Assembly: GCF_007997285.1 (NCBI RefSeq)
Contig: NZ_VORX01000002.1
Span: 62,001-126,000, forward strand
Reading direction: 5' to 3'
Origin: Gelidibacter salicanalis
GTDB taxonomy: Bacteria > Bacteroidota > Bacteroidia > Flavobacteriales > Flavobacteriaceae
DNA length: 64,000 nt
Shown here: piece after piece, positions 863-59,336 of the stretch
Layout: each line of letters begins with the position of its first letter
Numbering within the stretch: the first letter of the stretch is position 1
Notes under the pieces: generated by a model
Told to the model about the DNA's origin: nothing
Seen by the model: the letters and a program-made list of their open reading frames with translations, nothing else
Databases searched by the model: none
Made by a program: the position numbers and the translations under genes

Positions 863-991
863 AAAAAAGAATGTGTCTCAATAGTTGTGCAACCTATCTG
901 AGAGTTGAATATTTGAGAACTATTCTCGAACAGCTGTCCGAGACATGAATATAAAAAAAGCCGTTTCAATTAGTTTTGAGACGGCTTCTTT
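863..991 (-). repeat. 129-nt palindrome-rich dispersed element, copy 1
   Basis: This stretch matches the reverse complement of 59032-59160 without gaps at about 118 of 129 positions. Read on the minus strand, from the end of the Lrp gene, it starts with a 12-bp hairpin (AAGCCGTCTCAA, loop, TTGAAACGGCTT), then the near-palindrome CGGACAGCTGTTCG, then GAGAATAGTTCTC, and ends in a T tract. The A/G difference in the first hairpin keeps a G-U pair. The hairpin can terminate Lrp. I do not recognise the element as a named family. Confidence 0.85.
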
Positions 992-1007: not shown

Positions 1008-1478
1008 CTATATCTGAATCTGTCGGTCAATTTGCTGATTTAAGGAAATAAACGTTTCTGTTCTTGAGACACCTGCAATAGATTGAATTTCCTTATTGAG
1101 CAAATGCATTAGATGTTCATTGTCTTTACATAGAATTTTAATTAGAATACTCCAATTTCCGGTAGTGTAATGGCATTCTAAAACTTCCGGAATTTTTTGT
1201 AATTGTTTTACCGCTTCAGGATTGCTCATGGCCTTATCTAGGTATATACCAACAAAAGCCATGGTAGTATAACCTAATACCTTTGGATTGATCACGAATT
1301 TTGATCCTGAGATCAATCCAGATTTTTCCAATTTTCTCAGGCGTTGATGAATAGCGGCACCAGAAATCCCCACGCTTCGCGCTATTTCCAAAATGGGTGT
1401 TCGCGCATCTTCCATTAAGGCCCGAAGGATCTTTTTATCAATCCCGTCAATTTGTATGTTTTGATTGACTATTTTCAT
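1008..1478 (-). CDS. Lrp/AsnC family transcriptional regulator
   Basis: This 156-residue protein has an N-terminal winged helix-turn-helix (about residues 12-62, with GISGAAIHQRLRKLEKSGLI) and a C-terminal RAM ligand-binding domain (about 75-150) containing the typical HYTTGNWSILIKI stretch. Lrp/AsnC proteins form octamers that sense amino acids. The gene follows the saccharopine dehydrogenase gene on the same strand after 71 nt, which suggests that it responds to lysine or a related amino acid and controls that gene. This target is inferred from position only. A strong hairpin inside the 129-nt repeat follows the stop codon. Confidence 0.9.
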   Translation of the reverse strand: MKIVNQNIQIDGIDKKILRALMEDARTPILEIARSVGISGAAIHQRLRKLEKSGLISGSKFVINPKVLGYTTMAFVGIYLDKAMSNPEAVKQLQKIPEVLECHYTTGNWSILIKILCKDNEHLMHLLNKEIQSIAGVSRTETFISLNQQIDRQIQI

Positions 1479-24972: not shown

Positions 24973-24987
24973 AAATAATTAATTAGT

Positions 24988-25051
24988 GAGGTTCGCGACC
25001 TCTATTATTAATAAGAGCCTGCCCGACATAAACAATTTATGTCCTTCAGGC
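24988..25051 (-). promoter_or_regulatory. Structured 5' leader of rpsP
   Basis: On the minus strand the leader starts with GCCTG-AAG-GACATAAA-TTG-TTTATGTC-GGG-CAGGC, a long hairpin with an 8-bp perfect upper stem and a 5-bp lower stem (25017-25051). A GAGGT-CGCGA-ACCTC hairpin (24988-25002) follows, 16 nt before the start codon. Position and form suit an S16 autoregulatory leader. A Flavobacteria S16 leader class has, as I recall, been proposed. Confidence 0.6.
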
Positions 25052-32539: not shown

Positions 32540-32613
32540 GGTCTGGTAGTTCAGTTGGTTAGAATGCCGCCCTGTCACGGCGGAGGTCGCGGGTTCGAGT
32601 CCCGTCCAGACCG
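32540..32613 (+). tRNA. tRNA-Asp (GTC)
   Basis: The 74-nt sequence folds as a cloverleaf: acceptor GGTCTGG with CCAGACC, D arm GTTC-AGTTGGTTA-GAAT, anticodon stem CCGCC with GGCGG, anticodon GTC at 32574-32576, and T arm GCGGG-TTCGAGT-CCCGT. The discriminator base is G and CCA is not encoded. A terminator follows at once. Confidence 0.97.
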
Positions 32614-37252: not shown

Positions 37253-39922
37253 ATGCTGCATTATATCTTACAGACCGTCGCGTTTCAGATGTTCTTCCTG
37301 ATCATTTATGACCTCTTCTTAAAGAAGGAAACTTTTTTTAATTGGAATCGGGCCTATTTACTTGGTACTGCGCTATTATCTATGCTCTTGCCCTTTCTGA
37401 AATTCGAAAGTTTTAGAGCCATTGTTCCGGAACCGGCGGTGGTCAGATTGCCTGAAGTTATTATTGGCGACGTGTCATCCAACTTTAATGATGCCACCTT
37501 AATGATGCCGGCAGTGGAAATTTCTAATCAGGCCATGAGTTTCTCTTGGACGTATGTTTGGGGGCTTGGCATCCTATTGGCGACACTACTTTTAATCGTT
37601 AAGATTGTTAAAATCAGTAGGCTCTACTATCAAAATCCACAACGATGGGAGGGAGACGCATTAATTGTGTATCTATTAAATAGTACTGCAGCCTTTTCAT
37701 TTTTTCACTACATCTTTCTAGGGACCGCAATTGAACCTGACAAAAAAGAACATATTGTACAGCATGAGCTTGTTCATGTTAAGGAGAAACACAGCATCGA
37801 TTTGCTGATTTTGGAAGTTTTGCGCATCGTGTTTTGGTTTAATCCACTAGTGTATATGTACCAAAGTCGCGTATCTACCCTGCACGAATTTATTGCCGAT
37901 GCCAAAGCTGTAAAATATAAAGGCAAATCAGCCTATTACCAAAGTCTGCTGTCTCAGGTTTTTGAGACTCAGCACATTTCCTTCATCAATCCCTTTTTCA
38001 AACAATCATTAATCAAAAAACGAATCGTCATGTTAAGCAAAACAAAATCAAAACAGATCCATCTTATTAAATACGCTCTTTTAATTCCGATGGTCATAGG
38101 CATGTTGTTGTATACTTCATCTTATGCAAGTGAAATTAAGGAAGTATTGCCTCTAGATCAAAATGATTTGGTAGTCCAGGAGACGCCATTTCCAGAACTT
38201 GTAAATCACTACTACAATGCTGTTAAAGACCTAAGCGAACTTCCAGAGGATTACTACAAGGCCTATAAAAATTATGGTGACATCGGAGAGGATTATATGC
38301 AGAGTAAGCAAGACGTTGCCAAAGCCCAAGCGCTTTTAAGATACAAGCACACCAAATTAATGGAGAAACAAAAGGTAAAAGGAAAACTTAGTGCCGATGA
38401 GGAACGTGATTTGGAATTTTATGGGCAAAAACAATACAACTATGAGGAGTATATAGCCTATAAAAAAACTCAAAAAGCGAAAGATGCTTGGGAGAATTCC
38501 GCAGGTAACGGAGAACTTCGTTTGGTTGTAGAGGATATAAATGATTTATCAGATGCAGAACAAAAGAAGCGGAAGCAAAAAATAGCTTCTATAGTTAACA
38601 GGAATGAATTGAAGGTGCTGAAAATTACAGATGGCAACACGACTACACTATTAGATGCCACTGATGCTGTAATACAAAAGACTAATCAAAATGTTGCTTC
38701 TGAAGATGTTGAAGTGCCTTTTGTAACTCTCGATGAAATCCCAATTTTTGCCGGTGCATCTAACACCGGATCAAAGGAAGCTAACATGCAAAATACACGA
38801 GATAGTATATCGACTTTTGTGGCTCGAAACTTTAATACGACTATTGCAGATGAACATAATTTAACAGGGAGACAACGTATTAGTGTCATCTTTAAAATAA
38901 ATACACTAGGTAAAGTTGTCGATGTTTATGCAAGAGCGCCACATCCGGCTTTAGAAGCGGAAGCTATAAGAGTTATACAGTCTTTACCTGATTTTAAGCC
39001 AGGAAAATATAAAGGCAAAACGGTAACTGTGCCTTATAGTTTGCCTATCCTGTTTACACTTAAGGAAGATGAAAAAGATGTTAATGAAGTGGAGTCAGAG
39101 CGAATTATATATCCGGAAGGTGCTGAAGTGCCTTTTGCCCATGTAGACGAAGCGCCGTTTTTTCCAGCTTGTAGTGACACTAGCACTGAGAAAGAGCGAA
39201 AAACTTGCATCTCAAATGAAATAAGTCAATTTGTCAATAAAAATTTCAACATTAATTTGGCCGATGAATTGGGACTAAAAGGGAGACAACGTATCAGTGT
39301 GATTTTTAAAATTGGTAAAGACGGTGCAATAACAGATATAAAAGCGAGAGCGCCACACCCAGAATTGGAGAAAGAGGCAATCCGTGTGATAAAAGAATTA
39401 CCTAAAATGACACCCGGAAAACACAATGGGAAAGCAGTAGTGGTGCCTTACAGTTTACCAATTTTATTCCAGGTTCAAAATGATGTGGGAGATAGTAATG
39501 ACCTTGAAGAACTGCGCGAGATGCCTTCAAAAGAGTTGTTTGAAGTTCCTTATGCCGTAATTGAAGAACCGCCATATTTTCCATCATGTAACAGCATCCG
39601 TTCTAGGGAAGAGCGTAAGCAATGTACCTCAGATGAAATTAGTCAATTTGTCAACAAAAATTTTAATGTTAATCTAGCTGAGGATTTGGGTCTTGAAGGA
39701 AGACAACGTCTCATGGTGATATTTAAAATTGGTCAGGACGGCATTATTAGAGATATAAAAGCTAAAGGAACACACCCAGAGATGGAGAAAGAAGCGATTC
39801 GTGTCATTGGACTATTGCCAAAAATGAAACCGGGCAAACAAAGAGGGAAAGCGGTAATTGTACCTTATAGTTTACCAATTTTATTTCAAGTAAATGTAAC
39901 CACACCTAAAGCTAAAAATTAA
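37253..39922 (+). CDS. M56 membrane peptidase with three TonB-C-like domains
   Basis: This 889-residue protein begins with a BlaR1/MecR1-like M56 peptidase with about four helices and the zinc motif HELVH near residue 171. A helical stretch follows (about 300-450). Three tandem domains of about 115 residues then start near residues 486, 624 and 763. Each has a GRQR(I/L) strand, a VIFKI strand, HP-E-EAIRVI and a final VPYSLPILF. These are TonB C-terminal-like domains. It probably senses the envelope and cleaves the BlaI repressor, which is inferred from the family. The triple C-terminal part is unusual. Confidence 0.88.
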   Translation: MLHYILQTVAFQMFFLIIYDLFLKKETFFNWNRAYLLGTALLSMLLPFLKFESFRAIVPEPAVVRLPEVIIGDVSSNFNDATLMMPAVEISNQAMSFSWTYVWGLGILLATLLLIVKIVKISRLYYQNPQRWEGDALIVYLLNSTAAFSFFHYIFLGTAIEPDKKEHIVQHELVHVKEKHSIDLLILEVLRIVFWFNPLVYMYQSRVSTLHEFIADAKAVKYKGKSAYYQSLLSQVFETQHISFINPFFKQSLIKKRIVMLSKTKSKQIHLIKYALLIPMVIGMLLYTSSYASEIKEVLPLDQNDLVVQETPFPELVNHYYNAVKDLSELPEDYYKAYKNYGDIGEDYMQSKQDVAKAQALLRYKHTKLMEKQKVKGKLSADEERDLEFYGQKQYNYEEYIAYKKTQKAKDAWENSAGNGELRLVVEDINDLSDAEQKKRKQKIASIVNRNELKVLKITDGNTTTLLDATDAVIQKTNQNVASEDVEVPFVTLDEIPIFAGASNTGSKEANMQNTRDSISTFVARNFNTTIADEHNLTGRQRISVIFKINTLGKVVDVYARAPHPALEAEAIRVIQSLPDFKPGKYKGKTVTVPYSLPILFTLKEDEKDVNEVESERIIYPEGAEVPFAHVDEAPFFPACSDTSTEKERKTCISNEISQFVNKNFNINLADELGLKGRQRISVIFKIGKDGAITDIKARAPHPELEKEAIRVIKELPKMTPGKHNGKAVVVPYSLPILFQVQNDVGDSNDLEELREMPSKELFEVPYAVIEEPPYFPSCNSIRSREERKQCTSDEISQFVNKNFNVNLAEDLGLEGRQRLMVIFKIGQDGIIRDIKAKGTHPEMEKEAIRVIGLLPKMKPGKQRGKAVIVPYSLPILFQVNVTTPKAKN

Positions 39923-45020: not shown

Positions 45021-45091
45021 GGTTTTAGGTTGATATGTTTTTAAAACTTTGAGAGCGTTTAAGAGGTTGTTCTGAGTTCATTTTTTATTTT

Positions 45092-45217
45092 CGTTATTCG
45101 TTATTCGTTATTCGTTATTCGTTATTCGTTATTCGTTATTCGTTATTCGTTATTCGTTATTCGTTATTCGTTATTCGTTATTCGTTATTCGTTATTCGTT
45201 ATTCGTTATTCGTTATT
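45092..45217 (+). repeat. Heptanucleotide array CGTTATT, 18 perfect copies
   Basis: The 7-nt unit CGTTATT is repeated 18 times without mismatch over 126 nt. The array ends 8 nt before the hemW start codon. Such an array is expected to vary in length by slippage. Confidence 0.97.
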
Positions 45218-45225
45218 CAAATTAA

Positions 45226-58359: not shown

Positions 58360-58388
58360 AAGAGTATGTTTGTAACAAATATTTTTTT

Positions 58389-58430
58389 CAACAATCAACA
58401 ATCAACAATCAACAATCAACAATCAACAAT
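58389..58430 (+). repeat. Heptanucleotide array CAACAAT, six perfect copies
   Basis: The unit CAACAAT is repeated six times over 42 nt and ends 3 nt before the phnA start codon. It has the same unit length and position as the array before hemW, but a different sequence. Confidence 0.95.
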
Positions 58431-58433
58431 CCC

Positions 58434-59012
58434 ATGAGCGTTCTTCAAATGCTTCAAGATAGAAGCAACAATACTTGCGAACTGTGTGGTTCCAAAGAAA
58501 ATTTATCACAATATACCATTCCACCATCATTGAATGAAAATGTAGCCAATGATGTTTTGGTTTGTAAAACCTGTCTCGACCAAATAGAAGGTACTGTTGA
58601 CATGGACACTAACCATTGGCGTTGTTTAAATGACAGTATGTGGAATGAAAATGTGGCTGTGCAAATAATGGCTTGGCGCATGTTGCAGAGGATGCGTGCC
58701 GAAGGGTGGCCAAAAGATTTGGTAGACATGATGTATCTTGATGAGGAAGCATTAGCCTTAGCTCGGGCAACCGGTGAGCATGAAGATGAAGCTAACAAAA
58801 TTATCCATCGTGATGTGAATGGTGTGGTTTTAGAGCATGGAGATTCTGTAGTCCTCATCAAAGATTTAAAAGTAAAAGGATCCAGCATGGTAGCAAAACA
58901 AGGTACAGCAGTGCGTAATATCCGTTTGGATCATGAAAATGCGGAATATATTGAAGGCCGAGTAGATGGACAAAACATTGTTATCATTACGAAATATGTA
59001 AAGAAGTCATAA
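58434..59012 (+). CDS. PhnA domain-containing zinc-ribbon protein
   Basis: This 192-residue protein has an N-terminal zinc ribbon (CELCG near residue 14, VCKTC near 45) and a C-terminal PhnA domain with DVNGVVLEHGDSVVLIKDL, KVKGSSMVAKQGTAVRN and YIEGRVDGQNIVIITKYVKK. The longer N-terminus is typical of Bacteroidota PhnA-like proteins. Despite the name it is not proven to be part of phosphonate use. The heptamer array touches its start, and the 129-nt element follows its stop after 19 nt. Confidence 0.9.
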   Translation: MSVLQMLQDRSNNTCELCGSKENLSQYTIPPSLNENVANDVLVCKTCLDQIEGTVDMDTNHWRCLNDSMWNENVAVQIMAWRMLQRMRAEGWPKDLVDMMYLDEEALALARATGEHEDEANKIIHRDVNGVVLEHGDSVVLIKDLKVKGSSMVAKQGTAVRNIRLDHENAEYIEGRVDGQNIVIITKYVKKS

Positions 59013-59336
59013 CACTTCAACCAATACTTACAAAGAAGCCGTTTCAAAACTAATTGAAACGGCTTTTTTTATGTTTTTCTATCGGACAGCTGTCCGAGAA
59101 TAGTTCTCAAATATTCAACTCTCAGATAGGTTGTATACGTATTGAGACACATTCTTTTTTTTTTTTTTTTTCTTCTTCAATAAACCTGTAATTATCAACT
59201 AATTGAAGGTTTTTTTTTGTACATTTAACTCTCTCCACAACATGCCTATGCCTTTAAAATAAAGGCTCTTAACGATTGTCCTAAATCTTGGTTTTAAAAT
59301 TTGTAATTAATTTAAATTAACCAAAATTCAATTATT
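59013..59336. other. Gap of 324 nt behind phnA
   Basis: It holds copy 2 of the 129-nt element (59032-59160), a 17-nt T run that joins its end (59155-59171), and a weak AAACCT/AGGTTT hairpin with a T tract (about 59182-59218). The remaining 120 nt before the next gene are AT-rich, and I see no gene in them. Confidence 0.6.
59032..59160 (+). repeat. 129-nt palindrome-rich dispersed element, copy 2
   Basis: This copy runs in the sense of phnA: first AAGCCGTTTCAA-AACTAA-TTGAAACGGCTT, then the perfect palindrome CGGACAGCTGTCCG, then GAGAATAGTTCTC, and then a T tract. It is the reverse complement of 863-991 with about 11 substitutions and no gaps. The first hairpin with its T run can end phnA transcription. 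Confidence 0.88.

Follow-up and report, generated by a model that had tools for sequence, protein, structure and literature searches.

The window analyzed here, a 64,000-nt stretch of the Gelidibacter salicanalis draft genome (G000; 24 contigs), contains two inverted copies of a 129-nt element, at 863-991 and 59032-59160, which are 91% identical over 129 ungapped bases and constitute the longest inverted repeat listed for the window (E ~2e-47 within the genome). The ungapped inverted match of about 91% described in the first-pass annotation was recovered both by the repeat listing and by the genome search. One copy lies 16 nt past the stop codon of lrp (ORF 1008-1478, minus strand), and the other lies 19 nt past that of phnA (ORF 58434-59012, plus strand; distance corrected for 7 extra query bases), each in the sense of the gene ending before it, in agreement with the 16-19 nt spacing and the shared sense noted earlier. 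The gene products matched Lrp/AsnC and PhnA, respectively, in Pfam. The palindrome CGGACAGCTGTCCG and the GAGAA/TTCTC motif attributed to the element were likewise present. The two copies comprise the following features (window coordinates):

863..991, minus strand: element copy L008, with the element sense on the minus strand, downstream of lrp
954..991, minus strand: H1 of L008, terminator hairpin in which the left terminal repeat pairs with its inner complement
976..990, minus strand: left terminal inverted repeat of L008, AAGAAGCCGTCTCAA
925..942, minus strand: H2 of L008, inner palindrome, minus-strand CTCGGACAGCTGTTCGAG
867..881, plus strand: right terminal inverted repeat of L008, AAGAATGTGTCTCAA
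59032..59160, plus strand: element copy L001, downstream of phnA
59032..59069, plus strand: H1 of L001, terminator hairpin
59033..59047, plus strand: left terminal inverted repeat of L001, one mismatch to AAGAANNNGTCTCAA
59083..59096, plus strand: H2 of L001, palindrome CGGACAGCTGTCCG
59142..59156, minus strand: right terminal inverted repeat of L001, AAGAATGTGTCTCAA

Our genome-wide search (24 contigs, 3.78 Mb), a check that the first-pass annotation had proposed, revealed nine full, dispersed copies, including the two in the window, along with one further degenerate match on contig C5, mainly to the first hairpin; a simple two-copy duplication was thereby ruled out. Pairwise identity among the nine copies ranged from 82 to 96% (gaps counted), with sub-lineages formed by L006 and L007 (96%) and by L008 and L009 (95%), indicating that copies arose from copies. 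The flanking genes were unrelated to one another. Relative to ORFs predicted mechanically around each copy, seven of the nine started 6-30 nt past the stop of a same-sense gene, while L002 and L003 ended near a convergent gene, at 35 and 20 nt from its stop, respectively. In all nine cases, the stop codon of a gene read toward the element lay no more than 35 nt away. As a rough baseline only, 16% of the noncoding bases in the window occupy such stop-proximal positions.

Other repeats were also observed in the window. A tandem array of the heptamer TTCGTTA occupies 45090-45222, between two genes, and a CAACAATC-type heptamer stretch lies at 58387-58430, about 44 nt of which had many matches (91-100%) in this and other Gelidibacter genomes. 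Repeats spaced ~414-417 nt apart at 38702-39886 fall inside ORF 37253-39922 and reflect an internally repeated protein. At gathering score, Rfam matched the window at just two places, an S16-Flavobacteria ribosomal protein leader at 24978-25012 (minus strand) and a tRNA at 32540-32613 (plus strand).

Orthologous junctions in related species

Orthologous junctions were compared in eight congeneric genomes (G001-G008), covering 69 of the 72 combinations of site and genome, with both flanks aligned in 38 of the 69 loci. An automatic scan identified a terminator-like hairpin in 65 of the 69 (57/60 and 8/9), a count that includes four SPFH rows holding diverged element copies (G001, G003) or possible remnants (G005, G007). 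At eight of the nine sites, several relatives carried a convincing plain terminator, composed of an A-tract, a short stem-loop, and a T-tract, and at eight of nine sites the native stem-loop was absent from G. salicanalis, with the element in its place. No target-site duplications were seen by eye at the aligned junctions, so that the pattern, convincing at eight of nine sites, is the stem-loop replacement without target duplication known as the mode of IS1272.

The lrp site displayed a terminator in all seven relatives examined, six of which carried ACTCCTGA...TCAGGAGT. The neatest case was the L009 site, where only 45 nt (G004) or 47 nt (G006), with one hairpin inside, separated the matching flanks. 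The L002 site, compared on one flank only, revealed a clear terminator in G006 and a hairpin in G005 and G007; no hairpin was found there in G002, and the picks in G004 and G003 were unconvincing. Two other sites also had relatives in which the scan detected no hairpin, namely phnA (G001 and G002) and L006 (G005). Both neighbors of the phnA site were shared by G004 and G006 only, and the hairpins named by the scan at this site in G003, G005, and G007 were without a T-tract. A non-terminator hairpin was picked at L005 in G004 and G002, at L004 in G007, and at L001 in G008; at the L005 site in G004 and G002, a terminator was nevertheless present. A/T-rich 7-mers of the native arms also occurred in the G. 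salicanalis flanks in five rows of the 60-locus comparison, which we took as chance.

At the SPFH site, the G. salicanalis element lies in one orientation, a diverged copy lies in the other orientation in G001 and G003, plain terminators occupy the site in G002, G004, G006, and G008, and old element remnants may be present in G005 and G007. The occurrence of a terminator hairpin in relatives, together with the disappearance of the native stem from G. salicanalis, argues for replacement of native terminators by the element rather than addition beside them. The label of mobile terminator offered by the first-pass annotation is thus well supported: the element is dispersed in nine copies, all of them at the end of a gene, and their sites hold ordinary terminators in relatives (convincingly at eight of nine).

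Terminal repeats and relatives of the element

The consensus terminal repeat, AAAGAAGCCGTCTCAA, makes up the initial 16 nt of the consensus and is exact in four of the nine G. salicanalis copies. It recurs without a change at both ends of an intact ~1.75-kb insertion sequence of the IS1182 family in the sister species G008. The terminal repeats of the Gelidibacter element itself are imperfect (17/22 by eye). A comparable relationship was found outside the genus in G419, where an intact IS1182 transposase is present and the element has AAAGAGGCTGTCTGAAAAG (19 nt) in common with one end of the IS1182 element, the other end of that insertion sequence being a poorer match. When the G419 element was compared with plasmids by BLAST, it matched the end of an IS1182 element annotated in Bernardetia (E = 4e-6, 87% across 46 nt), whose transposase scored 449 bits against the NCBIfam model NF033551 (cut-off 270). 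Over 17 chosen genomes, the IS1182 transposase family had matches in 12 and exceeded the cut-off in 7. All eight folded ends of four IS1182 elements, a hand-chosen set, formed long hairpins. Four weak matches to our covariance model in G005 (E = 0.035) each lay 30 nt from one of four IS1182 transposase matches. That genome carries four ~1.74-kb IS1182 insertion sequences with equal scores on contigs C4, C6, and C23 (L367, L377, L384, L390); both ends of one copy folded into terminator-like hairpins, and a tRNA suspected to adjoin the insertion sequence was not found.

A profile search of the 24-contig G. salicanalis draft found no intact IS1182 transposase, and one remnant was located at C19:411014-411577 (L372), a 241-aa ORF corresponding to the C-terminal part of the family profile. 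The right-end motif, at zero or one mismatch, occurred in this genome only in the nine copies and at C18:11121. No autonomous copy was found in the G. salicanalis draft by end motif or by transposase. The element has several features of a MITE, being 129 nt long, multi-copy, devoid of a transposase gene, and equipped with terminal repeats shared with an autonomous IS1182 element, and its putative partner, recognized by end sequence, resides in the sister species and not in the same genome. A MITE can do without a partner in its own genome, as partners may be lost.

The covariance model, constructed from 15 Gelidibacter sequences only, identified clear copies elsewhere in the genus, five of them in G001 and a single one in each of G002, G003, G007, and G008. 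Across 397 Flavobacteriaceae genomes, searched with strict filters and at most eight candidates scored per genome, at least 13 had a match at E <= 5e-4 (G000 and G002 included); since the model derives from Gelidibacter alone, the numbers for other genera are minimum estimates. Matches at the family level that covered just the first hairpin were taken as ordinary terminators. Nine element-like matches were retained in five other genera (G180, G028, G342, G208, G419), and in eight of these the stop codon of an ORF of 80 aa or more lay 3-49 nt from one end. Single matches in G301, G334, G047, G415, G106, and G286 were terminator-like or doubtful and were not counted as the element, nor were 17 weak model matches (best E = 0.009) among 80 named SPFH loci. 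The elements in G028, G342, G208, and G419 measured 115-116 nt, with end repeats matching at 18-20 of 20 bp by eye in one copy of each (20/20 in G419, AAAGAGGCTGTCTGAAAAGT), and their terminator hairpin consists of the left repeat and its inner complement. Apart from the SPFH site, the genes at which four compared relatives carry the element differ from those at the nine G. salicanalis copies.

Diverged element-like stretches of similar sequence were observed 46 nt past a stop codon in G003 (C37:268007-268131, L192) and G007 (C2:161302-161440, L200), and they probably represent one old shared insertion. A stretch in G001 (C41:34697-34824, L190) has similarity to the second half of the element only, with no H1-like hairpin at its other end. 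Plasmids held no match to the Gelidibacter element or to the G342-type element, and viral contigs searched with a 17-nt end motif yielded none. Carriage by phage was dismissed, a single 35-nt phage match (E = 0.009) being taken as chance. A 42-letter pattern had no match in the genome contigs searched, a set that possibly excludes the genome of origin.

The first-pass annotation had also considered a REP-like element, a reading from which the terminal repeats and the relatives lead away, toward the IS1182 transposon family; the element ends point to a DDE transposase as the probable enzyme and not to RAYT (HUH). ERIC, REP/BIME, and Correia elements are short dispersed intergenic palindromic repeats that often lie near gene ends, and their terminal sequences and enzymes are other than those of IS1182. 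To our knowledge, there is no case of terminator replacement by any of them.

Short-patch illegitimate recombination, in which strands anneal at short shared tracts and the intervening stretch is replaced, could exchange terminators without a transposase if single-stranded element DNA annealed at shared A- or T-tracts and replaced the stem between them. The swap boundaries, which are often A- or T-tracts common to terminators, and the assembly devoid of an intact IS1182 transposase would suit such a process. However, it leaves unexplained why the terminal inverted repeats are identical to IS1182 ends, why end repeats of 18-20/20 bp (by eye) recur in other genera, and why one sequence multiplied instead of terminators being shuffled in general, and we regard it as improbable. 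Marginally less probable still is an ordinary insertion in or beside the native terminator, with the redundant hairpin then lost independently at each site: redundant terminators could decay, but no native stem was recognized in the G. salicanalis flanks at eight of the nine sites, and the copies are fairly young (up to 96% identity) within flanks that are otherwise well conserved.

Fold and covariation of the end hairpin

The terminator-like hairpin placed at the start of the element by the first-pass annotation was found in both window copies (shuffles gave 0.0 and 0.1). In each region, our terminator scan listed the plus strand only. At the lrp copy the facing gene lies on this strand, and the hairpin listed there has a T-rich tail; a T-run after the stem is also visible by sequence in the lrp sense. 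These two T-tracts would fit termination from both sides. The fold z-score was -6.6 for the whole element and -2.2 without the first hairpin.

A change in the stem that preserves pairing by G-U had been advanced as a hint of selection on RNA structure. Among the nine copies, this change is common to L008 and L009, which are mutual closest relatives (95%), and the argument therefore fails, the change being best read as one inherited variant that offers no evidence for selection. Covariation in H1 was evaluated in 15 hand-chosen hairpins from several genera, comprising 11 elements and 4 insertion-sequence ends and including the G334 hairpin, itself doubtful or terminator-like. Changes on both sides affected six of 13 pairs (10/500 shuffles reached this) and 15 cells (0/500 shuffles), and 92.6% of cells paired, compared with at most 64.2% when slid. 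Because pairs change on both sides while most cells still pair, the end hairpin appears to be conserved as a structure, either for termination or for the transposase. The covariation check suggested earlier thus bore out H1 across genera, but the number of further pair types was no higher than in shuffles (357/500), and the signal over 15 whole elements was weak (4 pairs, 24/500 shuffles), with 82.5% of cells paired (1/500 shuffles). RNAalifold on 15 sequences likewise gave only a weak structure.

A reading as a 3'-end RNA element or small RNA, maintained for the structure of its three hairpins, gains some color from the whole-element fold and the covariation of H1 across genera, but is the least probable of the alternatives, given the weak fold beyond H1, the unexceptional covariation of the whole element, the presence of the element at other genes in four relatives (SPFH site excepted), and the lack of any match to Rfam 15 at the element at gathering score in the window search. 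The small-RNA reading of the first-pass annotation lost its G-U argument, and nothing found indicates an independent RNA gene; a small or regulatory RNA was rejected in view of the unexceptional whole-element covariation and the weak RNAalifold structure.

Proposed terminator exchange and known systems

We conclude, with a probability of about 0.86, that the element is a non-autonomous IS1182 MITE whose end hairpin would act as a terminator and whose jumps would swap one terminator for another. An IS1182-type transposase, acting in trans, would recognize the terminal inverted repeats, and the element would be joined to the base of a stem-loop in the target, in the manner described for IS1272 and TnSha1. 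The stem-loop sequence would be lost in the same event, without target duplication, and the usual targets would be intrinsic terminators. The left end of the element, consisting of the terminal repeat, its inner complement, and a T-tract, would in turn terminate transcription in the cell. As this left end is itself a putative terminator, the host gene would lose one terminator and gain another.

Parts of this scheme have precedents. In Staphylococcus, Wan and colleagues compared strains and described IS1272 of the IS1182 family as replacing a target inverted repeat without duplication, both in three new insertions and in 19 sets from databases. In the model they proposed, an extruded stem-loop is joined at its 3' feet by the 3' ends of the element and is then lost; some older copies lie at targets other than inverted repeats (PMC5678879). 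Our element resembles IS1272 in stem-loop replacement, absence of duplication, and terminal inverted repeats, and we count the targets shown for IS1272, which are without sequence preference, as a further likeness. Unlike IS1272, which has its own transposase gene, it is gene-less and only 115-129 nt long, and its testable sites are terminators (PMC5678879). TnSha1, as reported by Furi and colleagues, integrates into hairpins, five of seven sequenced targets being terminators by RNA-seq, with deletion of hairpin sequence and with both orientations found at one terminator (PMC4923244). TnSha1 and TnSha2 share with our element the integration into hairpins with hairpin deletion and the two orientations at one site, whereas they are larger, carry IS1272 and sh-fabI, delete the hairpin partially, and include targets that are not terminators (PMC4923244). 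Two IS1182-type MITEs of Methanosarcina acetivorans, with ISMac2 as partner, measure 160 and 169 bp and number 14 and 7 copies (PMC3852290). They are likewise non-autonomous IS1182 derivatives of similar size, but are archaeal, with direct repeats of 4 and 0 in our reading of the table columns, and the word "terminator" is absent from the text of that article (PMC3852290). A large survey listed IS1182 among the families over-represented between convergent genes (PMC9208149).

As far as the sources consulted extend, IS1182 MITEs (M. acetivorans, PMC3852290) and stem-loop replacement (staphylococci) are thus already known. Among the literature matches listed, a set outside which subscription papers and ISfinder fall, there was no report of terminator-replacing MITEs; nor did the matches listed contain a report combining an IS1182 MITE with stem-loop replacement or describing such elements in Flavobacteriaceae. 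On our best reading, what is new here is a gene-less mobile unit with a terminator at its end, so that the host gene keeps a terminator.

An inner core of approximately yTCAAATAnnCAAnTCTCA is shared between genera (by eye), and the ends appear to change along with the local insertion sequences. A broader proposal, to which we would assign somewhat less than even odds, is a Flavobacteriaceae-wide lineage of IS1182 MITEs for which the terminator serves as both landing site and end structure, whose neutral swaps overwrite the terminators of many genes, and whose inner core has a function of its own.

These results provide comparative, site-by-site evidence that bacterial transcription terminators can be replaced by a transposon without genes, which brings a new terminator with it, and they offer a natural system for stem-loop-replacing transposition outside staphylococci. 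They also caution that the terminator of a gene is not necessarily ancestral to that gene. The supply of a terminator would explain how the element could spread harmlessly between genes.
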